Assembly (NCBI GenBank): GCA_947179485.1
Contig: OX359245.1
Coordinates: forward strand, 41,341,067 to 41,405,066
Direction: 5' to 3'
DNA: 64,000 nucleotides
Source of the DNA: Allacma fusca
Lineage: Eukaryota; Arthropoda; Collembola; Symphypleona; Sminthuridae
Position 1 is the first letter of the stretch; each line of letters begins with the position of its first letter. This document shows positions 8,316 to 61,988 of the stretch, in pieces. The notes beneath the pieces were generated by a model, which was not told the DNA's origin, made no database searches, and worked only from the letters and a program-made list of their open reading frames with translations. Both the position numbers and the translations under genes were made by a program.

Positions 8316-8872
8316 TAGGGCTTCTGTTCGGGACGGGACGTCCCGAGGTTTTCGGGACGGGACCGGGATCGGGACAGTTTCGGGACAAAAGTTTTGTCCC
8401 CATGTTATTTCGGGACTGAATCGGGACGATTTTTTTTGTCCCGAAGATTTCGGGACGGGACGGAACAATAGATAGGGACAGAAAAATATACTTGTACAGT
8501 ATACTATTGCTGTAAAAATGAATATGTATGGGAATTGTTTCGTTTAAAATTTCTTATTCTATATATAAATATTTTTTTAAAGTAAAATTTCGTAATTATT
8601 CGTGGTATTCTTGTAGAAATAAAGGAATTTGGAGCATTTCATAAGACTGGGATTATACCCGGGACGTCCCGTCCCGAGGTTTTCGGGACGGCACCGGGAT
8701 CGGGACAGTTTCGGGACAAAATTTGTGTCCCCATGTAATTTCGGGACTGAATCGGGACGATTTTTTTTGCTCCGAGGATTTCGGGACGGGATAGAATTTC
8801 CGTAATAATATAAAATAATAATAAAATAATAATTAAAAAAAAAAAAAAAAATTGTCCCCAGTAGAAGCCCTA
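8316..8872. mobile_element. hAT-type MITE with CGGGAC motif arrays
   Basis: A 557-bp element with terminal inverted repeats TAGGGCTTCT (left) and AGAAGCCCTA (right). It is flanked by an exact 8-bp target duplication GGAACTGG at 8308-8315 and 8873-8880. CGGGAC / GTCCCG words crowd 8328-8465 and 8655-8795, and the second block is a near copy of the first in direct orientation. The middle is AT-rich with no transposase. Eight-bp duplications and TAGGG ends are typical of the hAT superfamily, so it should be moved by a hAT transposase encoded elsewhere. Confidence 0.88.
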
Positions 8873-9105
8873 GGAACTGGGCAAGCACGCCAAAAAATAT
8901 GCCAAGGTAAAACTTTTTTCCCCTCGAAAATTCCTGGACAAAGATAAGTACATGTTAATGTAATCAAAAATGTTCTTGGAGTTAGCATCACGGTTTAAAT
9001 GAGGCATTGAACTTGGTTGTTTCCTTAGTACACGTAGAATTACTCCAGCTTTACAAACATCGAGCATTAAGAAAATAAATGAGATATCTCTCCAAATTGA
9101 ATGTA

Positions 9106-9268
9106 CAGTAGACTCTCAATACAGCGACAGAACAACAACACGAATTTTGATGACGCATCCAGGAAGGTATCATGTAAAGTGCATGCTATCAAACATATAC
9201 ATACTCTGGAGGAACCTTGTTATAAAGGAAGATTCGCTAAAAATAGTGTTTGTACAGAGTTTCGACTG
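9106..9268. mobile_element. Short TA-flanked MITE (mariner/pogo-like)
   Basis: A 163-bp element begins CAGTAGACTCTC and ends GAGTTTCGACTG, bounded by TA on both sides (9104-9105 and 9269-9270). The ends match the larger MITE at 31220-31808 (CAGTCGACTCTC). TA duplications and CAGT termini suggest the Tc1/mariner/pogo group. Non-coding. Confidence 0.75.
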
Positions 9269-9379
9269 TATAATAAAGTGTAACATTTACTTCTCAACCG
9301 ATTTCAGGGATCAGAGAAAGAGCATGGAAAATACTCTAATTTTACCGCTTCTACATAAACGCTTCCTTACGATGTGAGT

Positions 9380-9927
9380 TTTCTGTACTAATTAATTTAA
9401 TTACTTTTCTTAAGTGAATGCAATCCTACAATGAAATTGAACTTCACATGCAGAGAGCACCCAGAAACTTTAGCGAGATTTATCTGGTTGCATGAGATCC
9501 AATTAAAAGATATAGTGTAAGAAAATATTAAGGGTTTTCAAGTCAAAGGTCATCCATTAATATTTACATAAATTGTAGATATCAGTCGTCTGAGCTGTCA
9601 AACTCTACGTAACTCCTTCGGAGCATCAGACAAATATTTCCCCGTTACATGCATTGTACATATAGTGAGTTATTAATACATAATTACAAGCTTTCATCCT
9701 GCGTCATTTCCTCAATATGTAATTGCAGCAAAAAACCAATGGTTTCCTTACAGCCAACGACCCAGTGGCAATTGCATCACAAATTCAACCCCCATCCATC
9801 TCCAGACGACACTCCCTTCACAATTCCACTCATTTCCTCCTAAAATCCGTACCGAAACCTTCTTGTTTCGAATTTAGAGCATTCCATGCTAAAATATATA
9901 TTTCCTTATCCCAAAATTTGAACAAAA
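9380..9927. other. Presumed 5' flank of the UMP synthase gene
   Basis: No coding sequence could be supported, although short frames read through it. It should contain the promoter and 5' UTR of the gene starting at 9928. No TATA box or initiator could be picked with confidence. Confidence 0.35.
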
Positions 9928-11609
9928 ATGCCCTCCACTGTTACAATGGATTTACAAAAGGTGAAAGCCCTGGCGGTCAATATGTTCAAATGTGGAGCTG
10001 TAAAGTTTGGATCCTTCCAACTCAAAAGTGGGATTTACAGCCCTATATATTTTGACTTGAGGGTTATAATCTCTAAGCCGGATATCATGGTAAGTTGGTT
10101 TCTATACCCAAAAAATCTCTAGAAAAATTTTAAGGAAGAAAATTTTAAAATTGCATATTTTAACCCTGAATGTTTTCAGAATCAAATTAGTGACTATATT
10201 TGGGCTGAGATGGAGTCCAGGTATTCGTTCGACTCCATTTGTGGGGTTCCTTACACAGCGCTCCCGATTGCTACCCTGGTGTCTGCCAATCGAAGCGTTC
10301 CTATGATTCTGCGGCGGTAATTTCAAAAATATTTTCGCCCCTAAATTTTGTGAAATCTTGTAACACCTGATGATTTTATAAGCTTGACTTGTTTAGTACC
10401 GAAATAATTGTAAATTGTCTCATTTAAACAAATCCGTTGAAAAGAAAAGAAGCGAAGATGTACGGGACCGGGAAACTCGTCGAAGGCGCGTACAAACCTG
10501 GCTGGCGCTGCTTGATCATAGAGGACGTAGTAACCACAGGCTCTAGCATCCTTGAAACGGCCGAGTCCCTACGTCAGCATGGGCTAGTGGTAGAAGAGGC
10601 CATAGTCATTTTGGACAGGGAGCAAGGCGGGGACCAAAACCTTGAAAATCATGGGATCAAAATGACATCCTTACTCCAAGTCCAACCCTTGCTCATCGCT
10701 CTTGAATCCGAAGGCTTGATTACTTCCGAGCAGAAATCCAAAGTAGAGACTTTCCTCTCCCGGACTACGAGTAAATTTAACTTAAAGTTGGATAATCTGT
10801 TCAAAAAAAAGCTCATCCCTCGAATGACATGCACTGCCTCCAAGAAGCTCCTCCGGATCATGTACAAAAAAAAGACGAACCTCTGCTTAGCAGCGGATTT
10901 GCAAAATTGGACGGAAGTTCTGGAAGTTGCAAGAACCCTGGGTCCACATATTTGTCTCCTCCGAACCCACATTGACACTTACAATCTGGAGAACTACTAC
11001 CAAGTCGTCGAGTTTAGGAAGCATTTGAAGGACCTGGCGACGAAATTCGACTTTATGATTATGGAGGATCGGAAATTTGCGGATATTGGCTCAACTGTTC
11101 AGAGACAGTTGACTTCAAAGCCCTTTGAGATTGCTCAATGGGCGGATATGGTAACTGTCCATGGACTCCCTGGGCCCGGGGTCCTCCAATGCTTTGAGGG
11201 CTTGGAAAATATTGCAGTTGTTGTGATTGCAGAGATGAGCTCCACTGGGAATTTAGGTCGGAAGGTCTCGGACTATAAGCACGAATGCTTGAAAATAACT
11301 GATGGTTATGATAAAATTGTGGCGGGATTTGTCTCCCATTCAAAAATCCGAGTGGATAGGAAGGACACATTTTTCCTTCAATTCACTCCAGGGGTCGCTC
11401 TGAATGATTACACGGGTGGGGACGGGCTGGGTCAGCAGTATGTGTATGTGGATGATGCTATTCTGGACAGGGGTGCGGATGTTATCATTGTGGGACGGGG
11501 GATACTCAAACATGGGAATGAGAATTGGCGGGAGGTGGCGGAGGAATTTCAGAGGAACGGTTGGAGCGCGCTGGTTCAAAAGCTCATGAATAAATTTCGA
11601 GATACTTGA
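9928..11609 (+). CDS. UMPS: Bifunctional UMP synthase (OPRT + OMP decarboxylase)
   Basis: Last two steps of de novo UMP synthesis: orotate + PRPP to OMP, then decarboxylation to UMP, in the cytosol. Exons by GT/AG and phase: 9928-10089, 10180-10316, 10445-11609, giving about 487 residues, close to the animal enzyme. The N-terminal orotate phosphoribosyltransferase shows [22 protein letters not shown] and the PRPP loop [12 protein letters not shown]. The C-terminal decarboxylase shows [10 protein letters not shown], with catalytic Lys at about residue 310, [11 protein letters not shown] and IIVGRGI near the end. Both introns are short (90 and 128 bp) and the second ends in an unusual GAAAAG acceptor. 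The start was chosen because it lines up with the family N-terminus. A candidate AATAAA lies at 11937. The frame looks intact and under selection. Confidence 0.95.
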
Positions 11610-15093: not shown

Positions 15094-18000
15094 ATGAATA
15101 TTGAACAGCGGGAAAAGTGTTTTAAGCAAAAGAGATTAAAATCATTTATTATTGTCTCGGGATATTTTTTTTTCGAGGGATGCGAAGATGGTATGCACTA
15201 TTCAGTACCTGTATCAATCACTAATTTAATTCAAACGATACAATGAGGTTGTCACTAAACGTTTTGTAATTTCAGTGGTCATTCTGCCCACGTGTTGGAA
15301 CTTTCTGCAAACCTTGGGAGTGACGGAGGAGCACTGGCTTGGTTACACCATCTCTAGTAATTGAGCGTGACAGTAATTTTGATTTGATGCTCGCATTATT
15401 ATTTTTAACTTATTATGGGGTATTATTTTTTTCTGTGAGAATAGGGGAAACTCCGAATCTTTTTTTGTAATTTCATCTTCAAATTGTATGCAAAATCCCT
15501 ATTTTTTAATAAAAGTTTACAGTGTGGCGGCAGCAATTGCTGGTATGATCGGAGGACGCCTCGCGGACAAATACTGGAACCACACAAAAGCAATTATATT
15601 TTCCAGCATTATTTTCCGTTCCATTGGACATTTACAGTACATGCTGGGATTGAACGTCTGGAATATTCTAATTTCACGAACAATTTGTGGTAATTACGTT
15701 ATTTTACGGATGCATTCGTCCAAAGTTTAAATAATCGGCCGTGTTATAATTATTAATTTGCAGGATTGGGGGCAGCAGCAGGAACTTCTGCAATAGCTGA
15801 AATATGCCGAACCACAACTCCTGAAGAACGCAGAACCTTCATATCGATTATTACAGCAGCTTTTCAAATAGGAATTCTCGTTGGCCCGGGACTTCAACTC
15901 TTTTTATCTTATTTCAATTTCAGCTTATTTGGGTTAGCTGTAACTCCATTAAATGCACCTGGACTGTTCATGGGACTTCTTTGGCTGCTTTATTGGGTGG
16001 CGACATCTATTTTGTTTACCAATTTGACACAAGAGTTCCAAGAAATTCAGAAGCTAAAACTTGGAATTGACTCTGGACAACAAGAGGCTGTTGCCCCAAT
16101 TCTGGAGATCACTAATCAAAATAACGAAAAGCCGCAGGAGGGGAGTGACATTTACAGCAAATACATGCATGGTAAAAAGAGTCTGGTTTCTATAATCTGT
16201 ACTGGCGAGAATATTTGGACACAGGCCTATTATCTTGCCCAATTTAAATTAATTCGTTTAAAAGAGCAAGTGAGTGCAAAATTGTATTCCATTTAGGGAT
16301 GCTGACGTAAAGACAGCGGTTTTAAAGATTTTCTTACTGTCTTCATTAGAATTTCTGACGGACTCCTATGTACTTCTTACGTGGATGGTTCTAACGTTGT
16401 ATTTTCAACAGGTCGCTCTTGAAGTAAGTACAGACTGTAACCGAGCGTCATTCAAGAGGCGAAATGGTCTACATGCTATATTTTTGTACAGCATGTAGAT
16501 CTTTTTGCCTCTTCAGCGACGTTATATGTATGTTTAGCGACGATATAAGCTCAAACTTGTTAAACGGGTTAAAATATTGATTCCAGAATTATTATGTTTT
16601 TTATTTACTACAAGTAGACAGTGATCCCTGTAATCACGCAAGACTACTTCGGATTTGGTGTCCACGAAAATACTTTAATTTACTGGTCAGGTGGATTAGA
16701 GGCTATAACAGCTTTTGTAGGAATGGCCTTTTTGGGCAAATACGTACGAGAGAGTACGTTACTCGTCATGGGTTTGTCCTTAACGATCATTGCACATATA
16801 TGGCTCATATGTGTAATGCCCAGCTTTGAAAAAGGTAAATAAGGGGCTTATGTAAGTATTAACTTTACAGTAATTAGTATGTAAAGACTCAAAGTAATTA
16901 CTTGATTCTTTTCCCTAATTTTTAGGAAATAATACTCACGTTGTGTATTTCCTTGTTGGAACTTTCCTTTTTTACTTCGGTAGTCCGATCTTTAATGTTG
17001 GCAATACGGCATTAGCGTCCAAAGTTTTAAGTACAGAAACGCAAGGTAAAAATGTTTCCACTAGAGTAATTTTTTCTACATGTATTTGATATATAAATGA
17101 ATCTTTGCATGTTAAAATGGGCACCTAGTATGGCAGTATGGCTATGCAGATCATGCATGGAACTTTGTAGGAAAGTTCAATTCAAGATCAGTTCATTTAA
17201 TTTTCTTCCGTGCATCGTTCAGTCATAATACTCACAATCAGTTTATTGTTATTGGGTACAGCATTCACATATTTTTAGTCACGTTCACTCAAATTGAACC
17301 TTAAAATAAAAAGTTCAATTCACGTTCAGAATGTCCGTCTAGTCAATTCATTCAGTTCAAACATGAATTTTTAATTTCAAGTTCCTATTTAGACTTTACT
17401 GTTATTTTTAGTTGAAAATTAAGATTTTTAATGGATATCTGCAGAAAAAATTTAGTTCTTTGCTGGTTTGCATCACGTTAAACATTAAGAACATATACAC
17501 TAAATCTGATTGTGAGTTTCGTGTTATGTATACTCACATTCAGTTCAATTCATATCTCTAATAATTCTAACCTAGACATTCAAGTTAATTCCTATATTTG
17601 CCAAACATTCCAATTCATACTCATTCATGACACAAAATTATAGGTTTTCAGTTCACTAAAGTTCACTCAAATATTGAAATATTTCAGAAACGTTTTATTA
17701 ACGAACTAGTTCACTGAATGAATTGTTGCATGTACGATGCAGATAATTAATTGTAAAACTACTATTAATAAAATTCCAGGACTAGGACAAGGAATTCGTC
17801 GTATGATGTCCTACATAGGCCTAATATTTGGACCTACATGGGCTGGATCGACCGTGCACAATCCACGGCTCTTCATTGGACTTACACTGGCGCTACTGTT
17901 TGTCAATGTTGTATGTGTCAAAATAAATCCAATATTTTACCTTTCTAGAAAATGGTCCGAAAAGCATACTTGTGATTTGGTTATCCCTGATTTTTTGTTT

Positions 18001-18347: not shown

Positions 18348-19659
18348 TAGTACGACCACTGTTTCAGTTCATTTCAAAAAAATCCAAAATTGCAATCGAT
18401 TCATCGATTGCAACTAAAGCGAAGCCGGATTTCAAGGCAGGGAAGGTATTTTTTACGACCTTAGTGTTCAACGAGTTAAAATCTAGTTCCTGTGGTTAAC
18501 CCTGGTTTTCACGTCAATTCGAAGTTTTTTCGAAATTTCATAAAATTTTGAATATTGTGGCGAGGAAGGTATTTTCGACGATTTTATTGTTCAAGGAATT
18601 CTTTCGAGCGGTTTAATCAGAATTTTACGTAAATTTGGAATATTTTCAAAATTTCAGGGAATTTGGGCGGGAAAGGTATTTTCCACGACTTTAGTGATCA
18701 ACGAATTCTTTTGCACGGTTAAATTAGATTTTTAAGTGAATTCGGGGAATTTTCGAAATTTTATGAAATTTCATGAAATTTTGAAAATTGAAAAAGTAAA
18801 GGCGTTATTCCCAAGTCCATGACCCAACAGGTCGTTTGCCGCTGGTCCGGCAGTTGTATCTTGTCACGTGCGGGAGCCTTTAGGAGGACAAAATCAAAAA
18901 CGAGCAATTTTAGAAAAGCGCTTCGCTTTAAAAATTTTTTCGTTTCAGTTTGGACGCTGAAATGAAACGAATTTGTGGTTTCGTTTGAGTTCACAAAAAA
19001 GTGTTCACCGGGCAAACTGAAACGAAACGCAAAACGATCGTTTCAGGTGCGAAAATTTAAAATGCTCGACATTAAATCCTTTATGGCCAGGCATTCACTG
19101 ATTAAGTTTACTACGACGTCAGGCATACTTGTAAATGTAAATCTAGATATGGTTAGCTCGTGCCTCGTGCAACTCCAATCATTTTCCATTTTCAAAGCAG
19201 GATCCAACATGCCCAACAAAGTATGTCACTAACTCCGTGGTGATAAGTTAAATTAAAATTTGCACAAACTTCAAACGTCAAGATGTAATGAAAAATATAC
19301 AAGTGATTTTACGTAAATTAGAATACAGATTTAGATGTATTCTATTACTAAATATTAACTAATTATTTTGTAATTCGGGATTCAATGGCTTCCCAAGCCC
19401 ATAAACTGTCCAAAGGCGATTTCTCCGAAGAAATATTAGTATGCAGCAGCAAAATTTTCGTGACACGTGCATTTTTCCCGCAGAATTATATTGCATTTGA
19501 AACGCTTGAAACGCGTTTCAGTAAGACTGTTTCGTTTTGTTTCAGAGTCTCAACTGAAACGTTCGTTTCAGCTAAACTTGAAACTGAGCTGATATTTTTA
19601 TGGAACGAAGTGAAACAAACGGAAATTTTCGTTTCAGGAACGAAACACTGGGCGCACTA
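18348..19659. mobile_element. hAT-type element with GAAACG motif arrays
   Basis: A 1312-bp element flanked by exact 8-bp duplications TTGCAAGC (18340-18347 and 19660-19667). The ends TAGTACGACCACTGTTTC and TAGTGCGCCCAGTGTTTC match at 15 of 18 positions. The left third has three diverged 105-120 bp tandem units, each with a GAAGGTATTTT-type word (about 18441, 18563, 18671). The motif GAAACG / CGTTTC is dense at 18940-19050 and 19495-19655. Short open frames inside show no transposase similarity, so it is non-autonomous. Confidence 0.87.
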
Positions 19660-20174: not shown

Positions 20175-20415
20175 AGGTTTCTCAACGGATAGGATATATC
20201 CGCATATCCGCGGATCGGATAAATTTCGGATAGAATAATTAATAAATTTATCATATCCGCATTTATCCACCTGGATCGGAAGAGCTCATTGTATACGTTA
20301 AAATATTGCGGATAGTATACATGGGTAAAACTATCCGAACGGATACGACAATAAAATTTTAAACTTCGGATATTCCGTCGGATATCCGCGGTTACCGTCG
20401 GATAGTTTCATCTAC
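20175..20415. repeat. CGGATA / TATCCG motif island
   Basis: Dense CGGATA and TATCCG words, often as the palindrome CGGATATCCG, run from about 20178 to 20410. They resemble the subterminal arrays of the hAT-type elements nearby. The termini and target duplication were not resolved. Confidence 0.6.
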
Positions 20416-36144: not shown

Positions 36145-36160
36145 CTAAAAATCATATCAA

Positions 36161-44581: not shown

Positions 44582-45169
44582 CACACAAGCCATTGTGTCT
44601 TTAAAGAAGTTTTACAATTTATTGGATTTGTAATTATAAATTTGAATCCGAAACGTTACTCATTATCAACATGATTTTGCCAACAATATTTTAATACTAG
44701 CCAATTAAGTCATTATCTGTTTTTCTGTGTCGTACGTGAATGTTTCATTACAGTGGCTTGATGATGATAGCACTGCATAGCCAGCTATGTATTTCGGAAT
44801 CAGTTGATATGCGACTGAACCAACAAACTATGAAGCCTTTCGATGCCAGCAATAGTTAGCTGCGCAGTGCTAGTTATAATTAAATAAATTATTTCGTAAT
44901 AATTCATAAACCGTGGGCAACACGGTTTGTCAATTTTAGGGTGGCGTCAGCCCCTAGTAATATATCCTTGTCTGTACGTCCGTACGTCCGGGTATCCTTC
45001 CGCGCGATAACTCAAAAAATACTGGACCAATTTCAATGAAATTGTTTATTTACATCACTGCTGCCCTAGTCTAGTCAGACTTGACTAGAAAAGTCTAGAC
45101 TTGACTAGACTAGGAGCCAAAATCCATGTAAAAGAATAGACTTGACTAGACTACGCGTAGTGTTAATAT

Positions 45170-45687
45170 TGTTAGGTATGTATATAGAAATTACATAAAT
45201 TAGTTAAGTCTCACATGAATAATTCATTAAGTTGTGAAACACACAACCTTAGGTTAAGTCAGTTCAAAGTTACTTAAACACTTATTGTAAAGGTGCAATG
45301 TAAGCACTTCCCATCGGCTAAAAGCCGACGAGTGTCAACGTCCCGTTACATCCGTTATGATGTAACGTCTAGACTTAAGATTGTAAAAATAGGCTCAAGT
45401 AGCCACTTGTTAAGTTTAAGATTCTTCCAGACTCTTCAGTGAATAACTGAGAGTCATTCCAGTAACACCTATTTTTAGTTGTTAATCTTCATTTCCTTTT
45501 CCTTTTGATTTCAATTATAAATAAAAGTAATTAGTCTTCGGATTAATGTAAAATCATACTCAATCGTTTATTCATGATCATTCCTTTCATCAGCACGATT
45601 TCCAATTATTTACAAATTCTTGACATTTACATAAGTAAATAATCCATGAGTTAGGATTTCATGGTATGACCATAACCTACTCTTACA
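45170..45687 (+). repeat. 5' LTR of the Gypsy element
   Basis: Starts TGTTAGGTATG and ends CTCTTACA (TG...CA). Contains two perfect hairpins: TCGGCT-AAA-AGCCGA (45314-45328) and CGTTACATC-CGTTAT-GATGTAACG (45344-45367). TTATAAATAAAAG at about 45515 could serve as a TATA or poly(A) signal. Confidence 0.95.
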
Positions 45688-46208
45688 TGGTGGCCTTTGT
45701 AAAACATTGCCAAAATATTATTTCCCTGGCGATGCTCCCGAATTACTCTCAATTATCACTCCCCTTGGGAAACAATCGATTTACTTTAAGAATTGATTTC
45801 ATTACCAGGCAAGTTTGAATAATGTGTCATATTTCGTGAGAAATTTTGAGATTTACAGTTTTGGCCACGCAGAGGTTACATTCCTGCATTTTTGACGTTG
45901 CAACACGCACAGCTCATTCGGGACTACCCCCAGAGGAGTCAACCAATATTGACTGTGACCGGTCGAAGAACCCCTCGTAAGTTTTTATTGATAAACGGGG
46001 TTATTATTTCTTGTCCACGGAAGGCAGACGGATTTACCTGCGCTTCACCGACCGATGCCCTGAGGATTTGGGTATACTCAACGGACAGCCACGGAGCTCA
46101 GTACCGTTCCCACCTCATCCAGGAGGAATTTTATATAGTAAATGCACAGTGTTAAGTTTCATATCCATGAACCACCGTCACGGTACGTACATACTTACGT
46201 TATAATTT

Positions 46209-47822: not shown

Positions 47823-47842
47823 ATCTGTCACCCGCTTCATCA

Positions 47843-50800: not shown

Positions 50801-51634
50801 TGGGACATATTTGTTCCGTATGTAATTACTGCATATAATACTTCCGAGCATTCAGTTACAAAAATTTCCCCTTTTCAAGCATTCTTCGGTAGAGCTCCTC
50901 CAGCCCCTCTACTCAACTCCATTCCCAATACACTTTTACAAATGACTCAGCTCAGCGCTTCTCAGGTCAAAATTATGCATCAAAGAATATCCCAGTTAAT
51001 TAAAAAGGCTCAATTACAAGCCAAAGAACGATTTGATGCTATGTATCAACCCTTAGAGTTTAAAGTTGGTTCCCACGTTCGATTTTATCTCCCTCAGCGA
51101 AAAATTGGTTTGTCTGACAAACTTCTTTGTCGTTGGGTTGGACCTTATACCATAACTTATATTGATAAGAACAATAATGCTGACTTAGTTTTAACCTTTC
51201 CCTCTACTAAGCTTCGACCTAGTATTAAGTGTCACCTCTCCCAACTCAAGCTCATAAAAATTGATTTGGGGGATGGCATTATTCATCCCGAGTATGTATA
51301 TACTACGGAAGACCAGCACGAATTTGACGCTTGGTTGACACAATTTCCCTCCGACACCCCAAACTCCGATTCCTCTCTCCCTTCTCCCATCCGTAAACAT
51401 TCCACACGTCCTTCACGCAAAATGAAACTACAACCGTCCACTTCTTCTGAAGACCGTCCAGTTAAGCGTTTAACTTCTCCTCCTCCAAACTTCTCGCCTC
51501 AAACTTTTGGTTATCACTCCACAAAGTTAAAATCAATTCTCAAATCTCCCCAACAAGTTGATAGCAATCATACAGTTCGACGTTCCACACGTTTACGAAA
51601 TAAAACAAAGAAAGTTACATTTTCCCATGTCTGA
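47843..51634 (+). CDS. pol: Pol polyprotein (PR-RT-RNaseH-IN) of the Gypsy element
   Basis: A 1263-codon frame. Aspartic protease with LIDTGASHNLI (Asp19). Reverse transcriptase with FPLPRIDDLL and the YIDD catalytic box (residues 441-444). RNase H with TDASNLAIAG (Asp590). Integrase with an HHCC zinc finger (HNHPLGGH...CTHCPEC), then Asp871, Asp930 and Glu966, the last two 35 residues apart as in retroviral integrases. No chromodomain was seen. The C-terminal 120 residues are basic and low complexity. No stops or frameshifts. It copies the element RNA and inserts the cDNA. The last 8 bp overlap a possible start of the long downstream frame at 51627. Confidence 0.96.
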   Translation: MCPYIMCYFDDVSIDALIDTGASHNLIQKNHIPSSAVITPCPQRFVITADKARIPTSHIASLTFQLDNYFYTTDAHVLETLTPPLILGCKFITQFDFHIHLNSNSLYNSHVCHYFRKHAYSATCSSECGCSSPVKTLFTIQLPPRHQMYVPTTPLHTSHTTFFNPHPLIEKQYKVIFPPVINPAKNVLLATNISTSTQIIPADTLLGHAQRYDFTQSLNTAPVIPQNPTPFTPAQLQSLNINPKLRPAERASIINLLNKYSYLFAWTLMDLQVCTLPPMRITLNSDTPVQAKPYRLSTTEREILKQELDKLIQAGIIVPCENSNYSTPVFLVRQKLGKWRLVCDFQKLNKITVDEIFPLPRIDDLLFQLRSAAYFSPLDLFSGYYQALIHPDDQHLTAIVTEFGLYMYLRVCFGLKNAPAYFQRLAARTLGTLRYTHAVSYIDDIIPYSKDFPSHLVAIELVFQRLAKVNFRMNPKKCFFGMQEHVVFGFFLSQKGLSTESAKVAAIMEQPKPNNLETLRKFLGTIGYYRRFIWNFAQIAAPLQGLLKKHSLYHWSPDCDKAFLTLKNALCTAQVLRHYDPTLPCILYTDASNLAIAGILHQQFEDGEHPIYFISRALTPAEKNWGATEKECLAVVFATRKLREFLYLKPFIIVTDHPALCYLKCQRNPTARLTRMAVILEQFRYVIRYKKGTLHRNVDGVSRCPYALSTTKDTEDDLTIPGLTAQSPTSSPKPLPAIPLINPADLKHAQAIDHTLNKLLQKKRSKLIPNDDGIYFIQFNPRNPKLLVIPKAMIPIVLQNAHNHPLGGHLNFQRTLARLRPFYWWRSITSDTFKHCTHCPECQSRQHLTKLRMDSLKNIPIKIPASTYAMDLLGPFRETPRGNKYVLVLTDLFTKWVHTSLLPNREAAHIAMHLESFILTFPGMSILISDGAAEFKSATLQELLKRFNITHHVSMPFHPRSHGIVERLNQTLAIMLSKFVSDNQLDWDIFVPYVITAYNTSEHSVTKISPFQAFFGRAPPAPLLNSIPNTLLQMTQLSASQVKIMHQRISQLIKKAQLQAKERFDAMYQPLEFKVGSHVRFYLPQRKIGLSDKLLCRWVGPYTITYIDKNNNADLVLTFPSTKLRPSIKCHLSQLKLIKIDLGDGIIHPEYVYTTEDQHEFDAWLTQFPSDTPNSDSSLPSPIRKHSTRPSRKMKLQPSTSSEDRPVKRLTSPPPNFSPQTFGYHSTKLKSILKSPQQVDSNHTVRRSTRLRNKTKKVTFSHV

Positions 51635-53552
51635 CCACAATGACCAGCAACAATCCCCAGTCCCCGCCTGTGTACCCTTATGTGCCAGGCATTGTCCAGT
51701 ACCCGACAACTCTGGGCATCAATCCTGCCATTCGACTCTCCGACAACCCCTGGACGGAATTAATCAAAGTTTATCTCCCCGGAACCCCGGACACGCTAAT
51801 CTGTTGCCCAGTATCCATTTGCACAGTTCAAATATTTCCCTATCAATTTGCCGACGCGTCTGGGAACGAACTCAGTTGTTACGACTCCTCAATTCCTATT
51901 CTGAAGAGGACCTTCCGCCATGTTGCTGTGGGAATTGTATTGCCGGACCAAATTCCCTCTCTTCTGGACCAGTTGAGCGCAACTTACTTCCAGGCAACAG
52001 TGAAACAATCCCAAATGTGGAACGAATTTCTCCTTCAACTACGCGACGCCCCACCGAATTACGTCTCAGCGACGCCCGTTATTTCAATCGATCCGCAAAT
52101 TCGGTTCGAACAAATATCTCGGGCATGTTTGGAATCAGCCAACATTTGTGCAATCCAAACCCGTCGATCCAATTGGATCAAGAAGCACGGGCCACGTCAA
52201 GGCCCTACTCTGACATTGCCTCAACAACTCCTGTCCACAGCTCCACCGGACCCCATACAAAACCCTCTCGCTCAACCGCCTCAACAAGGCCCTGTACATA
52301 TACCTTCACTTCCGAAAGTGACTTCACCGGAAGTGATGACGACAGTTTGCCAAACTCGCCCTCTCCCAACTCTGACGCCCGGCCCCCCGCCAACGACTCA
52401 TATGATGACTGGTACGACGCCTGTCAAGCCGCCGCAGCAATGGACTCAGACGACTGGGACGGTGATCGACCTCAGACCCCAAACGATAATGGAAACCATA
52501 CAACTAACTCCTCTCCATCAACCTCACCGAATCTACCCGGAACTCGTTCTCAACGAACAAGGGGAATTTGTGGAAGCCCCGTCAACTTTTCAACCTTAAT
52601 CATTATGATTTTTCTTTTTATTTTTGCCTGTGAAAGTGCTCCACTTGGCATTTGGGGAAGCCTCCCCAACCTCTCCAAGCTGACAGGTGCCGGAACAAAA
52701 CTAAACATGGCCCGGACCAATTCAATGCACAAAATGGTACCCCTTCAACGGTCAGTCAGTATCCAATCACTACCCTCCATGGCTCAGAACGGTAACAAAA
52801 ATTTTAATCTTCCCATGCAGGCTGCCCCTTCCAAGAAAAATAATGCGGTCAAAGTTATGGCTGCTGGAGCTGCTCTTATGGTAGCCCCACCAATTATAAG
52901 TAAAATCTTGGATTTCATTCCCTCTCGCTCCAACACCTTCCCCGAAATTCCAAAACCTGTCCTGGAAACTCCTCCTCCTCCTCCGCTCACTCCTTCCCCA
53001 CTCGAACAACGACTCTTGATAAACTCACCAATTACGATTGACGATTATAAAGACGATACTTTTAAGCCTTTCAAAGATGTTAATAATTACGATGCCAACA
53101 TAACTCGAATGTTAGAGGATTGGAAATCTATTCATAATTCTTTTCTCACCTTACAGAATAAGCAGGATGAGCCCGGCCAGACAGTTACTCTCACTACTAC
53201 CCTCTCTCCGCCTGTCCATGCTAAGCAAACAGCATCGGAGCCCATTCTTCCCGCTCTTCCGGTTCCAAAAATGGAAATTGGCGTTGGCGAGGGAGATTCC
53301 CAAGTTCTTCTCCGTATTTTCACTTTGTCAAGTACGGCCCTTTCAACCATTATTGGCTTTGGTTTAATTGTATATGGTTTATATTGTTATTACCGGTATC
53401 GTCAGCGAAACCGCCAGAACTCCCGAATCTCCCATGCCCTACCTAGCGCCTATTTCATCAATAATCCCCGCCCACACAACAATGCCCCGTACCCACCCAT
53501 CGTGGCCCTCAACAATTTATCCAACCAGCTGTCTGCCCGGACTCCAGCATAG
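51627..53552 (+). CDS. ORF4 / env-position membrane protein; start uncertain
   Basis: The frame is open from inside the pol end to 53552. Two starts are likely. From 51627 the product would be 641 residues with a Ser/Pro/Asp-rich N-terminal half. From the ATG at 52605, 5 bp after the ORF3 stop, it would be 315 residues beginning with a strong signal peptide (MIFLFIFACESA). Then come a hydrophobic AAGAALMVAPPIIS stretch, a Pro-rich spacer and a membrane helix near the C-terminus (STIIGFGLIVYGLYCYY) with a basic cytoplasmic tail. The short form looks like a type I membrane protein in the envelope position. No clear similarity to a known envelope family, so env function is inference only. Confidence 0.65.
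   Translation: MSDHNDQQQSPVPACVPLCARHCPVPDNSGHQSCHSTLRQPLDGINQSLSPRNPGHANLLPSIHLHSSNISLSICRRVWERTQLLRLLNSYSEEDLPPCCCGNCIAGPNSLSSGPVERNLLPGNSETIPNVERISPSTTRRPTELRLSDARYFNRSANSVRTNISGMFGISQHLCNPNPSIQLDQEARATSRPYSDIASTTPVHSSTGPHTKPSRSTASTRPCTYTFTSESDFTGSDDDSLPNSPSPNSDARPPANDSYDDWYDACQAAAAMDSDDWDGDRPQTPNDNGNHTTNSSPSTSPNLPGTRSQRTRGICGSPVNFSTLIIMIFLFIFACESAPLGIWGSLPNLSKLTGAGTKLNMARTNSMHKMVPLQRSVSIQSLPSMAQNGNKNFNLPMQAAPSKKNNAVKVMAAGAALMVAPPIISKILDFIPSRSNTFPEIPKPVLETPPPPPLTPSPLEQRLLINSPITIDDYKDDTFKPFKDVNNYDANITRMLEDWKSIHNSFLTLQNKQDEPGQTVTLTTTLSPPVHAKQTASEPILPALPVPKMEIGVGEGDSQVLLRIFTLSSTALSTIIGFGLIVYGLYCYYRYRQRNRQNSRISHALPSAYFINNPRPHNNAPYPPIVALNNLSNQLSARTPA
51640..52599 (+). CDS. ORF3 of the Gypsy element, unknown function
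   Basis: A 319-codon frame beginning 5 bp after the pol stop, with A at -3 of the ATG. The first 190 residues have a mixed, globular-looking composition (LSDNPWTELIKVYLPGTPDT, FRHVAVGIVLPDQIPSLLDQ). The rest is Pro/Thr/Gln-rich and ends in a more ordered YPELVLNEQGEFVEAP. No signal peptide or membrane segment. I recognise no family. The same DNA is also fully open in the frame of ORF4, so the region may code twice. Its place after pol is where env or accessory genes lie in other Gypsy elements. Confidence 0.7.
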   Translation: MTSNNPQSPPVYPYVPGIVQYPTTLGINPAIRLSDNPWTELIKVYLPGTPDTLICCPVSICTVQIFPYQFADASGNELSCYDSSIPILKRTFRHVAVGIVLPDQIPSLLDQLSATYFQATVKQSQMWNEFLLQLRDAPPNYVSATPVISIDPQIRFEQISRACLESANICAIQTRRSNWIKKHGPRQGPTLTLPQQLLSTAPPDPIQNPLAQPPQQGPVHIPSLPKVTSPEVMTTVCQTRPLPTLTPGPPPTTHMMTGTTPVKPPQQWTQTTGTVIDLRPQTIMETIQLTPLHQPHRIYPELVLNEQGEFVEAPSTFQP

Positions 53553-53823
53553 TTTTAAGCTCACCTTGATTTTCTAACGATAAGATGTACTAATACAATA
53601 TTGATTTTACACCTGTTCTCACCTTCACCTTAAATGATTACAGTATGTGTACTAGCTAGTAAAGAAAAACACAAAAACAATTTTTTTTTTTGCTTTTTGC
53701 ACTATCTCTTCTTTATTCTCCCTATCTTTGTTCAAACATACATACCAATTGTACTAACACAATATGAATTTTTAATGCAAATTATTAAATTTTGGGGACA
53801 AAATTTTCCCCGACCGCGCGGGA

Positions 53824-54341
53824 TGTTAGGTATGTATATAGAAATTACATAAATTAGTTAAGTCTCACATGAATAATTCATTAAGTTGTGAAACACACAA
53901 CCTTAGGTTAAGTCAGTTCAAAGTTACTTAAACACTTATTGTAAAGGTGCAATGTAAGCACTTCCCATCGGCTAAAAGCCGACGAGTGTCAACGTCCCGT
54001 TACATCCGTTATGATGTAACGTCTAGACTTAAGATTGTAAAAATAGGCTCAAGTAGCCACTTGTTAAGTTTAAGATTCTTCCAGACTCTTCAGTGAATAA
54101 CTGAGAGTCATTCCAGTAACACCTATTTTTAGTTGTTAATCTTCATTTCCTTTTCCTTTTGATTTCAATTATAAATAAAAGTAATTAGTCTTCGGATTAA
54201 TGTAAAATCATACTCAATCGTTTATTCATGATCATTCCTTTCATCAGCACGATTTCCAATTATTTACAAATTCTTGACATTTACATAAGTAAATAATCCA
54301 TGAGTTAGGATTTCATGGTATGACCATAACCTACTCTTACA
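53824..54341 (+). repeat. 3' LTR of the Gypsy element
   Basis: Base-for-base the same as the 5' LTR by eye over 518 bp. It is preceded by TTTTCCCCGACCGCGCGGGA, which may hold the end of the plus-strand primer region. Confidence 0.95.
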
Positions 54342-54848
54342 ATATTTTGAGACTTGACTAGAATAGACTAGGGCAACTTGCGAAAACACAGGACTTGACT
54401 AGACTTGACTTGCATGGCTTCATGGAAAAGCTAGTCAAGTCGCAATTACTTGAGGCTCCCTCATTTACTGAAAATCAAAACTAGAAAGCCAAATGTGAAA
54501 TTCCAATGTACTATAAACTTTCATCGTCAGGGGCGTTTAGTGTGCTTAAGTATAAAATTTCGTTTTGAAGGATCAAAACATGATATTGTCCCCTGAGCCA
54601 TGTGTTTAAGAAATATCTAGTTTTCAGTTACCATTTATTCTTCAACAAAGTTCCAAAAACTAACTACTTAGGCTGACTATTGTTTATTTTAAACTTTCCT
54701 ATCTGGTATATATGGATTTAACATGGGATTTTATCAGGTATATTATATGGAATTTCCACTGGGACGCACCAGGGAAATACATGACACAAGTAGTGGAATT
54801 TATTGTAGGTTGTAACCAGGGATGGGAAATTTAGTCAGACGACCTGCA

Positions 54849-55217
54849 GGATTGGATTAAGGGATTAAGCGAAAAAATTCCGATCACATGGATTGGATTA
54901 CGGGATTAAGCACAAAAATTCCGATCACATGGATTGGATTACGGGATTAAGCACAAAAATTCCGATCACATGGATTGGATTACGGGATTAAGCACAAAAA
55001 TTCCGATCACATGGATTGGATTACGGGTTTAAGCACAAAAATTCCGATCACATGGATTGGATTACGGGATTAAGCACAAAAATTCCGATCACATGGATTG
55101 GATTACGGGATTAAGCACAAAAATTCCGATCACATGGATTGGATTACTGGATTAAGCACAAAAATTCCGATCACATGGATTGGATTACGGGATTAAGCAC
55201 AAAATTTCCGATCAGTT
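54849..55217. repeat. Nine 41-bp tandem repeats (GGATTGGATTA units)
   Basis: Each unit contains GGATTGGATTACGGGATTAA followed by GCACAAAAATTCCGATCACAT. The first and last units differ slightly. Each holds two or three GGATTA-like sites. They lie 32 bp inside the hAT terminus, where transposase-binding arrays are usually found. No spacers of differing sequence, so not CRISPR. Confidence 0.95.
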
Positions 55218-55767
55218 GGATTAGAGTAAAGAATTCATAAAAATAAATAAAAATTCGCAGATTTACATGTGATTGGCGTTTTGATGTGGATTTTATTAAG
55301 GCCATTGAGAAAAACAAATTTTCTAACGGATTAGCACATAGACCAAATAAAATCTTACTGACAGTACATCAACGGGCCAACATTTGCCAATGCATAGATT
55401 TTTGAGCTATTGGGCACCGCAAATTCGGCATGGATTCGGATTGAGATAATGCGGTGACGTAAAAATCCAAATAGTTGGTTTAGTTAACAATGCTGGTCCC
55501 ATTGATTCAAATTCATTAGTATGAAGTTATGGATAAATTTTAACCAGAAATAGTCCAAAAATTAAAGATGTACATAGTTCAAATCACAATTCAAATCCAC
55601 ATGTTTATAACACACATTTCAATCATTATATTTAACTAAAATACTAATATAAAGAGTACTAAAAATACTAAAATATGTACAGATTTTGGGCACGAGAACG
55701 GAGACTTGTTACTTGGTAATCAGTAAAAGGCTTGAAACCACTTTAAAATCACAAAAGAACGACAATT

Positions 55768-58700
55768 TTAATTTGTATCCTTGCAATGCATCATGTCAAG
55801 TTCGTCACCATTGACTTTAAGGAGAACCAACAGTTCAAATACTGGGTCGCTGAGGTTGTAACGGTTTGGACGCATTACCATATTAGCATAATTGAACAAT
55901 CGTTCTGAAGGGGCAGATGAAGGCAACGGTGTATTGAAGTGCAAAAACATCTTTCTAATAATGGGAAAGTTGTGAAGGGAAATTAATTCTTGAGAAGAAT
56001 TTTGAAAATATCTCAAGCATTCCAGTTCAGCAGTGTTTTCTCTATTCTCAATAACGCTTGCGGTGGGAGATGAAAACTCGAAGAAATCGTCGGTGACATG
56101 AAATTCTTCTTGCGCATCTAACTCTACAGGTGTTTCAAATAATTTTGCTTCCTGAATGAAAAATTGTCGCAACTCGTCTCTCTTAGCTGGAATCCATCGC
56201 AATTTGAAATAAGGCAGGCTTATTGCAGCTAAAATTTCTTCCCGAGATAAAATTATGTCGAAATTGCAAATCGATGCGAAGCGATCCTGCAATCCGTCTC
56301 TTAAAGCGGTTGCAAGAGGAGTTGTATATTTCCTAGTTGAAGCGTTCTCTAATATAGTTTCCAGCTTTTTCATTGCTTGAATAACGACTGGAGCCAGATA
56401 GCCATAAAAAAAATCTTTTTCGCTCTGTAACTTGTCTAAAGCTGCTGAAATTGGTCTCATCGCAACAATGTAATCCTCAAGAAATGTTATCTCCTCGTCG
56501 ACTAGTTTCTGAACAGAAGCAGTATGGAATATTTGCTTAAATTTTTCCTTGTGCTCCAGCAGACTAGAAATTGAATCATACAAGCTGTTCCAGCGAGTAG
56601 GTACTGGTTTTTTTAAGGCTTTGCCGCATAACTCTTGAAGAGTCTCCGCCATTTTTGTAGATCTGTTGGAAAGTTTGTTCCATAAAGCAGCACACTTTGC
56701 CATTGCTGATCGGTAGATTCTTTTGAACTGTGGTTCGTTCTGCGAATTTATTTTTGTCTGAAAACAAACATTTTTTTTTCGCAAAAAATAGGTCTATAAA
56801 GCAAAAAGCATCGATACGCGATAATTTGAGGCTTCGCGTAGGGTTGCGTCAGCCAAGGCCGTCAAAGTAGGATAAATTTTCGTTTTTTTCGAAATTTCAG
56901 ATTTGTTTTAGAAAACACTATCGGGCCGATTTCGACGACATAGAAAGTAACCATTACTTTTTACATAATCAATATTCACAAAAAGTTCCATTAAAATCGA
57001 TTCAGTAGTTTTAGAGATAACAGTCGTTTGACATAAAGTCCAAAATTTTAAGAATTGTTTTCGAAAAAACTATCGGACCGATTTCAACGACACATACAGT
57101 AGGCATTACTATTAACATAAGCAATATTCACAAAAAGTTTCATTGAAATCGATTCTGCAGTTTTAGAGATAACAGTCATTTGACAAAGTCCAAAATTTCA
57201 AGAATTTATTTCAAAAAAACTATCCGGCCAATTTCACCTAAATACGAACTCAGCCTTACTTGTGATCCAAGTAATGTCCGTAAAAAATGTCATTGAAATC
57301 GGTATCGTAGGTTTTGCGTAATCGTGCGGAGGGACACACGGACGTACGGACGTGCGGACAAGGTTATTTAACTAGGGGGCTGACGCCACCCTAAAAACCC
57401 AATAAAACATCCATTTAGCTAACAATGATTATATCAAATACCAGCGTGCAATCAGTAGTTGCTACCAAACTGAGCGTGTGACTTGCACATCTCGCATGTG
57501 AAGGAAGTAAAATATTTGTCGGTGTTACAGATTGAAGCACTCGGCCCATATCTTCAGACACCAGCTCCGAAACTTCGTCATCATCCTCGTCATCCACAGA
57601 ATCGAGTTCGTCTATGTCAATAATTCCACCTGTTACGATTCCCTCACGTCCTGTAACTTGATCAGCCAAATCAATTCCAAATTCACGAAATGCCTTGACA
57701 AAATTGCTTCCATTATCTGTTACAACTTTAATAACGTTCTCACGAGACAGCCCGAAGGACTTAAATATTTCATGAAGCATTGATGCTATTCGATCGAATG
57801 TATGCGATCCTTTAAATCTCTTTAAAGCCAAGATACAAGATTTCCTCTCTAAGTCATTTGTTATCCAGTGTAGTGTCACTCCTAAATAGCTACGCCTCCT
57901 TGAGGACCAAATATCTGTTGTTGCACAGAATTCTTTGACGAATTTTATTCTCTGCTTTAAGCCGTCTTCAAATTTTCCTTTCCTTTCCATTAGCTTAGCT
58001 ACCAAAGTGCCACGACTAAAAACTTCGGCCTTTGGATCCAAGCCTGAAATACGTACATAAAATTAAATTAAAATATTTTTCACACTACATATTAACCACC
58101 CAAAAATGTGTTACAAATTATATGTAGTCAACTATTCAGTGCTGTTATTACTGTATGGGTTGGTTGTAACTGAAGGTTATAACTAAGAGTGACATTACCA
58201 CTGGGACCGTAGTCAGGCGTCATAAATTTTATTGAGTAACCCAAAATTTTTTAATGTAACCCAATTATCTCGTGTGGTGCATACGTAGCACTATGATTAG
58301 TGACCACTCAGGGACCATAACACAAAGATTAAAAAATTCAATGAAATAAAAATTGAATTAAAAGATTCTCTGAAAAAAACTCCCATCGATTTCCCTACAT
58401 TCGAACGTTACTAGTGAAGCCGAATATCTACACATAATTGCTTGTTTTCACAATGTCATTTCCACTCTACCGCGACCCAAATTCACATCTTATTATAAAT
58501 TATAATATTATAATAGATTTCACTACTAAATCATTTTGTGAAATCAACCCATTTAATTTAATTTTATGCGAATCGCATCTTAGTTTAGTAATACAAATCT
58601 CACACCTTTAACTAAATTCCGAAAGCGTTTGTCCTCGACTATGCTAAGAGGGCTCATAGTGCCGACCACAAAATCCGTAATCAACTCGTCCACCTTAAGT

Positions 58701-59178
58701 TTCTTACTCGATTCACCGGTTTTGGGAAAGTTCAGTGTTGTTCGTCTTGCCCTCTTATTTTTGACTGTTGGTGAATCTTTATAAATAAGATAGTCCTTGT
58801 ATTCTTTATGATGGTACTTCTGGAAAGACGAAGGTTTTATTTAGAATGACATTTTTAATAACACTTATTGTAAATTAACTACATACTTAAAATAAATGTG
58901 TAATAATTCTTTACTTTCATAAGCAAGCTTAAAAGCTAGGATAAATGAATTGTATCCAGTAACATATGTATTATTTCAAAGCAAAAAATAATTACCTGAA
59001 GATGTGATGTAAAGTTTGACGTTGGGTGTAAGGATCCTTTTACAAATCCACTGCTTGATTCAGAAGAATTTTGACATGTCACACACTTTGCTTTGACTTC
59101 ATTATTGTCTATTTCTACAATTTCAAAAAACTTTCCATCAAGAACGATGGGTTTCTGTTTTTCTACTATTTGAGTCAT
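55768..59178 (-). CDS. hAT transposase (BED finger, RNase H-like, dimerization)
   Basis: Exons on the minus strand: 59178-58996, 58819-58606, 58043-57442, 56757-55768, all joined in phase, giving about 662 residues as expected for hAT. Exon 1 holds a BED-type zinc finger CVTCQN...HPTSNFTSHLQ, finished in exon 2 by KYHHKEY. Exon 3 carries the catalytic core with TTDIWSSRRR, VVTDNGSNF and CASHTLSLV. Exon 4 has the insertion domain and the C-terminal dimerization motif (PSSAPSERLFNYANMVMRP, NLSDPVFELLVLLK). It excises and inserts elements with 8-bp duplications and should act on the GGATTA-bearing ends. No stop or frameshift found, so it may be active and could be a source for related MITEs elsewhere. 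Confidence 0.9.
56840..57393 (-). mobile_element. CGTCAGCC MITE inside the hAT intron
   Basis: A complete, uninterrupted copy, with ends AGGGTTGCGTCAGCC and GGCTGACGCCACCCT. It lies between the donor (57441) and acceptor (56758) of the third transposase intron, so splicing can remove it. It contains three ~140-bp diverged repeat units and, near one end, CGTACGGACGT words. It aligns along its whole length with the two halves of the split outer copy. Confidence 0.85.
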
Positions 59179-59711
59179 GTTGACCTACTTTATAACATGT
59201 TTGACTCACTTCGGTTCACTGGTAATTACTCATGCTAACAAAGAAACTACTATGTTCCCACGCTCTTTCCCAGAATTATAATTCTATAAGCTATAACGAA
59301 ATGACTTCGGTTTGAAAACGTTGCCACTGGAATTGTGACATGTGAACGCAGGAAAAACGTTCTTTGCTATACCGCTAGGTAGTGAAAAATACCGTGCAAA
59401 TACAGCAACGTCATTCCAGTAGATGCAATCCAATCCCCACTACTGAGAGTAGTGGATTTTGGGATTAGGATTGACCAAATATTTCATGAAGTATTGGATT
59501 AGGATTGGGGATTAATTCGCTGGTACCCAAACATTTGGATTTGGCTAATGGATTAAATTGAAAACGTTGAGCCGGGATTGAGGAGTACGGATTATATTTC
59601 AGATTACTCAACACTTGGATTAGGATTGGGATTAATTATTTCTTGTAAATTTCGTAATCCGGGATTAAATTAATCCCGGATTAATAATCCATTCCCATCC
59701 CTGGTTGTAAC

Positions 59712-60247
59712 ATGGTGTAAATTGTACCAGCCATTAACTGAACCGCAAAATGACAACGTTAAAGGGCACATTATAAAGTGGTTGTTTGGTTTGGAGTGTG
59801 GTTTTGGACGAATGGAAGTGCCAGATGTGTAATTTATATTAATTGAAGACAAACTGGTGGCGACAATGACAAATCATGTAAGTTGTACATAGTATGTTTC
59901 ATATGTAGCAGCAACCTAGGTGGTAGTAATTTGTATGAAACAGGTGCTGACTACAAGGAATCACTCAGGTTATACCAAGTATTTTTTGTATCCATCAGAA
60001 ACCAACTTGGTATTAATTTTTGAGAAACTGGTGCTGACAACAAGGAATCACGCAGGTTCTACCAAGTTTGTTTTGACTCCAACAGAAGCAAACTTGGTGT
60101 TAATTTTTTAGAAACTGGTGATGACAATAAGTAATCGCGCAGGTTTCACCAAGTATGTTTTGATTTCACCAAAACCAAACTTGGTAACAATTGAATCAAA
60201 ACTTGTGGGTGAATCAGAATTTGGGGAATTTATAAACAACGAGTCGC
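59712..60247. other. Left arm of the foldback element
   Basis: Continuation of the element that starts at 54703, after the hAT insertion. Small open frames such as 59920-60111 follow the 85-bp repeat units and are not genes. Confidence 0.5.
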
Positions 60248-60636
60248 CAGGGGTAGGATTTTTGTAAATCTCCTTGGAAGATCATTTCTGAATTTTCCTG
60301 CTACATTTTATGTCCCTGCGGGGAGGTCCTCAACGATTTCAAAAATTCCTACTGAAAAAAAGGTCAACGATTTTGAAAATCCCTGTTGGCAAAAATAATT
60401 TCCCTACAGGACCTCAAATCCCTGCAAAAACAGGTAAACCATTCTAAAAATCCGTTTGCTTAGTAAATTTCCCTGAAACATGCCAATAAATATCAAAATC
60501 CCTGCCAAAACGAAGGTCAACGAATTTAAAAATCCCTGTTTGCAAAAAAGAATCCCTTCATTATGAGATTTTCCCTGCCAGAAATATTTTTCCCTGGGAA
60601 GAATCTTCCCGTCTTTCCGCAAAAATCCCACCCCTG
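60248..60636. mobile_element. hAT-type MITE with TCCCTG motif arrays
   Basis: A 389-bp element with ends CAGGGGTAGGATTTTTG and CAGGGGTGGGATTTTTG (one difference in 17 as inverted repeats). Flanks CGAGTCGC and CCAGTCCC match at 6 of 8, a weak target duplication. TCCCTG words (AAAATCCCTG, TTTCCCTG) run throughout. A decayed relative lies at about 6461-6629. Inserted in the middle of the foldback element. Confidence 0.7.
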
Positions 60637-61988
60637 CCAGTCCCTTCGGACGTTCAGGTTAGGATAGTTCGGCTGAAAAGGAGTGACGGGGGTCATCGCA
60701 CGACGACCCACACCAGTTGTCACCTGCATTGATGAGCATGCAAAGGAAATTGATAACATTTGATACAAGAACATTTTGTTTTGTGGATATCATTGCTCTG
60801 GTTTATGATTCCTCATAGCAGCACAAGTTTTTCTTCAAGTAATACTAACCATGTTCTTGGTGGAATGAAAGTATACTTGGTGGTACTTACATGGTTTTTC
60901 ATTGTTAGCACTTTTTTCCTTCAATTACTATTAACTATGTTTTCGGTGAGGTCAAAACATACTTGGTTCAATTTTCGTGATTCCTCATTGTCAGTACCAG
61001 TTTAGTAAAAATTAACACCAGCAATATTCAGGGTTCAGCAAGTGTCTAGTACATTGTAATGTTCCTATATCTAACATAATCACACCAGATATATATACAT
61101 ATTTTGGGACCCTCTACCAGGAAGGAAATTCTGCTCTGCAAAAATCTTGCTGAACACAATTTTTGTACTGACGTAAACTACATGTGTTGTTTATCATTTG
61201 TGCGTTGTTTGATTCAAAAAACATGAGCTAGTTTTTTGTTACATGTACACGATAAAATCTGAAATTTTTAAGCTCAAAGAGTCACTGGACAAGTTTTTTA
61301 AACAATAGTTTAATATGTTCCTAATCAAAACGAAGGAATTTTTATAAAAAAAACACAGTGACTAGGGGAATAGACTAGACTTGACTAGGGAACCAGCTGA
61401 AGAATTAAGACTAGGACTAGACTAGACTATTGCCACTTAAACATACAGCTGACTTGACTAGACTTGACTAGTTGCGGTTCGAAACTTTAAAGAATAGACT
61501 AGACTTGGTAGCCTGGCGGGCAGCAGTGATTTACATTACTTGTGTCAAAAGTAAGGCTGAGTTCGTATTTGTTTGAAATCCGCCAAATATTTTTTCAGAA
61601 AACAATTTTTGAAATTTTGGACATCAAGTCAAATAACAGTTATCTCCAAAACTACGGAATGTATTTCAACGAATTTTTTTTGAATATTGCTTATGTATGT
61701 AAATAGTAATCGTTATTGCCCCTATGTGGTTGAAATCGGCCTGATAGCTTTCTCGAAATAAATTCTTGAAATGAACTTCAAGTCAAATGACAGATATCTC
61801 TAAAACTATCTACCGATTCGATTTCAATGAAATTATTTGTGAATATTGCTTATGTAAATCGTAATGGTTATTGCATATGTGATTGAAATCAGCCGATTGA
61901 TTTTTCTGAAAAAATTCGGAAATTTCGAAAAAATACTCAAAATTCATCCTACTTTGAAGGCTGTAGCTGACACCACCCTACGTGAAGC

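Follow-up and report, generated by a model that had tools for sequence, protein, structure and literature searches.

In this study, the window, a 64,000-nucleotide stretch of the springtail Allacma fusca genome (contig OX359245.1, positions 41,341,067 to 41,405,066), was found to carry eight transposable elements that combine short inverted ends and target-site duplications (TSDs) with a short word repeated near the ends. These ends, duplications and words are directly seen, as are the retention of the words in genomic copies and their sharing with transposase-bearing relatives. It is quite likely that the elements belong to parallel hAT lineages, in each of which an inverted tip of about 12 bp is joined to an array of a lineage-specific word that would be read by the lineage's own transposase. 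The elements are E1 (8316-8872), E2 (17152-17736), E3 (18348-19659), E4 (42269-43160), E5 (43722-44581), E6 (45056-61528, interrupted), E7 (54817-59703) and E8 (60248-60636); E7 lies on the reverse strand and the others are given on the forward strand.

Word arrays at the element ends

A preliminary description of this DNA had ascribed inverted ends and 8-bp duplications to all eight elements. The ends were found in 8/8; the duplication is exact by direct reading in six (E1 GGAACTGG, E2 ATGCAGAT, E3 TTGCAAGC, E5 CACACAAG, E6 ATTTACAT and E7 GTTGTAAC), has one mismatch in E4, and agrees at 6/8 bases in E8. Pairs of terminal inverted repeats (TIRs) and TSDs matching at 11-12 of 12 end bases numbered four in the window, compared with 0.1 per shuffled window; three of them are elements of the preliminary description, and the fourth (18540-18764) lies inside E3. 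E1 to E5 are miniature inverted-repeat transposable elements (MITEs). The word is CGGGAC in E1, a non-autonomous hAT-type element, AGTTCA/GTTCA in E2, GGTAC/GTACC in the high-copy E4, ATAGGC in E5, GACTAG in E6 (part of CTTGACTAG, the word named earlier), GGATTA in E7 and TCCCTG in E8. The best 6-mer of the outer 400 bp scored above the maximum of 100 dinucleotide shuffles in 8/8 elements. Enrichment of an own word was thus confirmed throughout, except that GAAACG, the word proposed for E3, was not the best of that element: GTTTCA/TGAAAC, found mainly in the middle and at the right end, scores 7.5 (shuffle maximum 5.9), whereas GAAACG, absent from the first 590 bp, is marginal because its score of 5.4 (shuffle 95% value 4.9) falls below that maximum. 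The 8 x 8 word table is nearly diagonal, and each word occurs at most three times in the ends of any other element. A home-made expectation-maximization motif search gave usable motifs for the strongest arrays only, and its orientations were not used.

Words were ignored in a scan of the window and the adjoining 181 kb (twenty overlapping 10-kb pieces; 245 kb in total), which required an exact, non-simple 8-bp duplication, tips beginning with [CT]A, no more than two mismatches in 12 bases and a length of 150-6000 bp, with 10 shuffles for comparison. The scan yielded 30 calls (25 unique) vs 0.2 per shuffled set. A word score of at least 8 was reached by 22 of the 25 unique elements; compared with 600 random segments, 18/25 lay above the 95% value (10.7) and 13/25 above the 99% value (16.7). 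The three low scores belong to L039:4781 (3.4), L042:1241 (5.9) and L043:3387 (2.5), and the word of L042:1241 probably lies in a nested E4-like copy. The elements of the scan and of the preliminary description, less L039:4781 and L043:3387, form a catalogue of 28; L042:1241 was kept in it, but was not counted in the polarity test and was excluded from the word-position analysis. The catalogue holds 24 distinct words in 245 kb, some with a common core. Among the new words are AGCCCG, ATATCG, ACGAGA, GGACCA, GAAGGC, CGGTTC, CAATTC, AAATAC, ACTTGA, CGGGTA, and ATCCGA. Word density has a median of 23.8 per kb in a word's own ends and a mean of 0.98 per kb in other elements, a comparison in which end location is partly built in, the words having been picked for enrichment in ends.

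The words had been described as repeated on both strands, which does not hold for most elements. One strand predominates in the ends of E1 (17+/4-), E2 (11+/1-), E5 (12+/1-), E6 (16+/3-), E7 (26+/3-) and E8 (8+/0-); only E3 (3+/3-) and the near-palindromic E4 (16+/9-) are mixed. In 19 of the 24 non-palindromic elements with a majority at each end, the majority strand of the word is the same on the left and on the right (p=0.007); after same-word relatives were merged the figure is 16/21 (p=0.027), some of the majorities being narrow. Such arrays are head-to-tail rather than mirror-image, so a transposase would be able to tell left from right. The first 10 bases of the ends are free of word starts. 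A word is present at positions 11-14 in 22/60 ends, whereas the mean of positions 15-100 would predict 10.4 sites (p=0.001); in this statistic, paired ends of an element are not independent observations. Density dips at positions 15-20, rises at 31-50 (6.5 per 100 bp vs 9.2 at 11-14), and then declines inward.

Superfamily, genomic copies and autonomous relatives

The TSD signature of hAT elements is nTnnnnAn. T2/A7 was observed at 40/60 positions in 30 elements, E8 excluded (p=3e-8), and at 29/50 in 25 E1 copies alone (p=1e-4); the alternative T4/A5 was not enriched in either set (16/60 and 18/50, respectively). The tips of the eight elements begin with [CT]A, with the exception of the right tip of E2, which is CG in the window copy and starts with CA in 10/10 fetched copies; the scan, which required [CT]A tips, provides no evidence on this point. 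Among the transposases, L054 has both a zf-BED and a dimerization domain above the Pfam cut-off, and L049 and L052 have the dimerization domain only. The BED-like and catalytic-core matches of E7 fall below the cut-off, and its class is supported by homologues. Alignments of E7 and of the remaining loci with hAT proteins, and among themselves, extend across the catalytic-core region, with Pfam core matches below the cut-off. L049 was aligned to Hermes transposase structures at residues 78-248, and gave weaker TAL-effector matches over a short stretch. In the genome, at least 150 hAT dimerization-domain matches lie above the Pfam cut-off (best 150 of 860 candidates). The 8-bp duplications, the T2/A7 bias and the hAT transposase sequences found in E7, in the E5 partner and in L054, the distant relative of E2, support the proposed hAT membership where it was testable.

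Genomic copies of E1 and E2 keep the word arrays, as would be expected of word-coded families; the copies are best-scoring matches, not random ones. For E1, a first look gave 994 candidates, of which the best 40 were scored and 27 loci examined (L002, which coincides with L009, was excluded, and a tip pair was missing at L025). Both tips were found at 26/27 loci, with an exact TSD in 22/26 and 15-21 main-strand words in 26/26. For E2, with 422 candidates, the best 40 were scored; 33 of these, E2 itself included, span at least positions 5-579, and the other copies are 75-80% identical. Ten of the 40 were fetched, with boundaries placed where tips and duplication together fitted best; the TSD is exact in 8/10, and 9-14 AGTTCA words lie on one strand in 10/10. 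In these copies, word columns are 0.963 identical vs 0.916 elsewhere (permutation p=0.003). E4 gave 1456 first-look candidates, the best 40 of which are 89-100% identical, and E5 gave 405, the best 40 being scored. Between diverged pairs, word columns are identical at 407/460 positions vs 1603/2045 elsewhere, with words better conserved in 10/11 alignments; these sums omit a duplicate L038 alignment and alignments without word columns, and pooling over all gives 475/532 vs 3713/4733.

The prediction that autonomous partners carry the same word was borne out where it could be tested. The word-sharing sets consist of E5 and the 3.9-kb hAT C10:11174623-11178510, E2 and the more distant L054:878-5360, and E7, which has its own transposase, and the small element L039:431-1590. 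As far as sequence comparison allows, one word per family, common to a transposase-bearing relative, is supported where testable. Dimerization-domain matches at C10:11175069 and C9:45698941 sit 2.7 kb downstream of sequence resembling the first 463 bp of E5. The C10 element measures 3,888 bp (by arithmetic from the two end stretches read; about 2.7 kb between them was not read), with TSD GTTTTATG, tips CAAAGGTGTCC and CAAAGCTGTCC, and TAGGC arrays at both ends. E5 matches the left end of this element with positions 1-463 (86%) and the right end with positions 468-860 (87%), the right-hand piece beginning just past the dimerization frame of the partner. E5 thus comprises both ends of such a hAT and is therefore an internal-deletion derivative of it. 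L054 (4.5 kb, word AGTTCA, exact TSD CTTTCAAC) and the E2 consensus have similar tips (CATACTTGCAGT and CATGCATGCAAC). They agree in the word and in the strand it lies on, and in both the first word is at position 23; identity is 69% over the first 85 bp, and most else differs.

E7 has three reverse-strand transposase frames: a BED-type zinc finger (58939-59184; 17 bits, under the Pfam cut-off of 20.6), a catalytic-core segment (57418-58062) aligned by hAT proteins with its Pfam rve match below the cut-off, and a hAT C-terminal part (55771-56793) assigned from homologues. The C-terminal frame has 302 homologues; Dimer_Tnp_hAT occurs in 25 of the 120 listed, and one homologue is an A. fusca 'Transposase'. 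Three copies of E7, itself included, are 98-100% identical over nearly the full length. A high-copy repeat of about 595 bp lies between two of the transposase frames (56803-57397) and again just outside E6 (61533-61998), and 42 of the 53 listed genome matches of E7 fall in it.

Two further transposase loci have recognizable ends, both with one TSD mismatch: L049:759-4835, with the word CACTAC and a 632-aa frame, and L052:1469-4486. In maize Ac/Ds, subterminal AAACGG sites are bound by the Ac transposase. L052 also carries AAACGG at both ends (4 + 3 sites), in a different kingdom, and the shared hexamer may be chance. No convincing TIR/TSD pair was present in the fetched sequence of L050, L051, L053 and L055; L050:1765-3690 and L051:2884-4581 are long open hAT-like frames without recognizable ends and may be domesticated or decayed transposases. 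In the 181-kb flank, tblastn gave no other transposase, and a hidden Markov model search gave one weak match (L047:2033-2269, E 0.036). The frames scanned in E1, E3, E4, E6 and E8 gave no hAT Pfam match, and no autonomous partner turned up for these five elements, for which the genome-wide copy search covers E1 and E4 only.

The interrupted E6 and other features of the window

The stretch at 45056-61528 had been read as one element. Its ends, TSD and word stand, but a single 16.5-kb hAT was rejected: the stretch is a nest of insertions around E6, a non-autonomous element of about 2.0 kb into which a long terminal repeat (LTR) retrotransposon, E7 and E8 are inserted. E6 runs on the forward strand from its left end (45056-45169), through a continuation between the LTR retrotransposon and E7 (54342-54816) and a presumed continuation between E7 and E8 (59712-60247; assigned by position only, with few or no words), to its right end, which bears the word array (60637-61528). 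The LTR retrotransposon (45170-54341) has two 518-bp LTRs and a 4-bp duplication, ATAT. Matches to a zinc knuckle, reverse transcriptase, RNase H and integrase lie between the LTRs, and a protease match is below the cut-off; the frames are gag-like, pol-like and a third long frame without a Pfam match. Judging by its LTRs, it is a recent insertion within E6, because these are 100% identical. E8 is a small element with hAT-like tips (CAGGGGT) nested in E6. A partial second copy, 80% identical, lies on the forward strand at 6442-6629 and retains several TCCCTG words. TCCCTG is the reverse complement of CAGGGA, the start of the E7 tip CAGGGAT; E8 may use a tip-like sequence as its word.

Islands of CGGATA and ACTTGA had been suspected of being further members. 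For ACTTGA this was confirmed: the islands at 22850 and 39190 are 80-81% identical, over 101 and 230 bp, to end sequences of a family that is intact outside the window. The island at 22850-23090 is a partial copy matching L047:4974-5074, the right end of L047:3780-5074, and the ACTTGA/AACTTG island at 39199-39570 is a partial copy of the L045:7853-9660 family. The CGGATA island (20175-20415) has the same word as L048:6539-7166 (TIR TAAGGCTTCC, exact TSD), with a weak DNA match (best E 3.9e-4). In the flank, copies of the AAATAC element (L042:8224-8848, L043:5966-6590, L044:2661-3285 and 8356-8980) have the same TSD, TTCGTAAA, and lie a few kb apart, probably as a result of tandem segmental duplication. 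L035:4149-9543, a 5.4-kb element of uncertain superfamily, has 14-bp perfect tips (TATTATACATTTTG), an exact TSD and, at one end, an array of GCGTTTAGATAC-like units.

Elsewhere in the window, the frame at 10428-11609 encodes a uridine 5'-monophosphate synthase, 99% identical to an A. fusca protein. A 4.7-kb stretch at 33989-38688 has inverted ends of about 15 bp enclosing a 683-aa frame, whose DUF1258 match is below the cut-off, and TAAACG/CGTTTA words near both ends; a target duplication was looked for and none was found. It is possibly a non-hAT transposon with subterminal words. The PIF1-helicase-like fragment at 41740-42360 is perhaps a Helitron remnant.

Proposed recognition model, rival explanations and significance

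From these patterns we infer that each transposase binds its word and mobilizes the elements carrying it, that the pairing is exclusive, and that inner words play a role. Within each lineage, the transposase would bind the word through its BED zinc finger; words next to the tip would position an oligomeric transposase on it, and extra copies would raise affinity. MITEs would keep tips and arrays and be mobilized in trans by whichever transposase recognizes their word. The principle of an address word is already published for single elements and proteins. In PMC3143072, the transposase of Herves, a hAT element of Anopheles gambiae, is described as binding a short motif that recurs in the subterminal regions of both ends, and the binding regions of hAT transposases as differing in sequence, which ensures specificity. 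Herves is one element studied by electrophoretic mobility shift assay, whereas the springtail has many words in one genome, known from sequence alone. In Hermes, a hAT element of Musca domestica, the BED domain binds subterminal repeats, the first at bp 11-27, and the repeats are mainly antisense on the left end and sense on the right (PMC10368747). These features may correspond to the same-strand polarity and the tip-side docking word of the springtail elements. The Hermes motif has 4 bases, AAG(T/C), whereas the springtail words have 5-6 bases and differ by family. For CGGBPs and proteins with hAT BED or Hermes domains, PMC8097297 states that most have their own 8-mer preferences, and that the motifs of the four hAT-encoded proteins match subterminal regions of their own elements at high score. 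That set comes from many species and mostly non-functional transposons; the springtail set is parallel within one genome. No multi-family word set within one genome was found in the literature searched, which consisted of titles and abstract openings, most subscription journals lying outside it.

Several observations weigh against this model. Some word cores are common to families whose tips differ: GGTAC to E4 and L047:5878, TCGGA to L047:8179 and L048:6539, and CTTGA to E6 and L045. The earlier claim of a private word per family thus does not hold strictly. Random segments reach word scores of 23.0, although they may include other hAT pieces, uncalled elements having been left in. Phasing of the words at 10.5 bp was not supported (power 3.6; top periods 5.25, 6.0 and 8.5 bp). 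The arrays of E7 and E5 are partly 41-bp and 22-bp tandem repeats, respectively, and the two arrays of E1 are a 132-bp direct duplication (92% identical), so sites in those stretches are not independent. The words of E1 are no better conserved than the remainder in a diverged relative (0.83 vs 0.84), and the diverged alignments in general, found by BLAST, may favor arrays. Recognizable ends were present at 3/7 of the fetched transposase loci (L049-L055), and the best 6-mers of L052 differ between its left (AACCGT) and right (AATAAC) ends. The C-terminal frame of E7 has no Pfam Dimer_Tnp_hAT match of its own. In the Hermes complex, binding is confined to repeats near the left end, those of the right end being unbound, and a donor retains about 70% activity when two of its inner left repeats are mutated (PMC10368747). 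Many inner words may thus be dispensable.

The repeats in E7, E5 and E1 would also fit arrays that arose incidentally, through replication slippage or tandem duplication close to the ends, without a role in recognition. This is improbable given that word spacings are widely spread, that words occur at both ends of the same element, and that conservation is higher in the words than around them in most diverged alignments and among E2 copies; in addition, E2 and L054 agree in word, strand and first-word position though most else differs. In E7, L049 and L054, word arrays are found upstream of the transposase frames, as would be the case if the words served transposase expression, as promoter sites or as sites for host transcription factors, and were retained in MITEs by descent. 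However, arrays are found at 3' ends too, they are retained in MITEs that encode nothing, and the words differ in most lineages; we regard the promoter explanation as very improbable. Some elements might come from another superfamily with 8-bp duplications and be only hAT-like. No transposase is tied to E1, E3, E4, E6 and E8, and the tips of E6 (CACTG), E2/L054 (CATGC/CATAC) and L035:4149-9543 (TATTA) differ from the more usual form, [CT]A[GA]NG. Such an origin is nevertheless unlikely in view of the T2/A7 bias over the 30 elements and in the E1 copies taken alone, and L054, with its CATAC tips, encodes a hAT transposase.

Beyond parallel hAT lineages with lineage-specific words, it is conceivable, though we would not call it probable, that the genome holds a codebook of dozens of lineages, in which word, strand polarity and tip-side docking word together make up a modular address that the BED finger reads. 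The word would change faster than the transposase, a point suggested by L049 and L052, whose proteins are about 51% identical and whose words differ; word switching would free lineages from each other's MITEs and drive their multiplication. The fetched autonomous copies add words beyond the 24, and some words are tied to transposases. For annotation, the case of E2 and L054 suggests that word arrays can lead from a MITE to a diverged autonomous relative. The parallel word set makes the recognition code of BED fingers testable within one species, and likewise the question of how a new transposon lineage gains independence from its parent.

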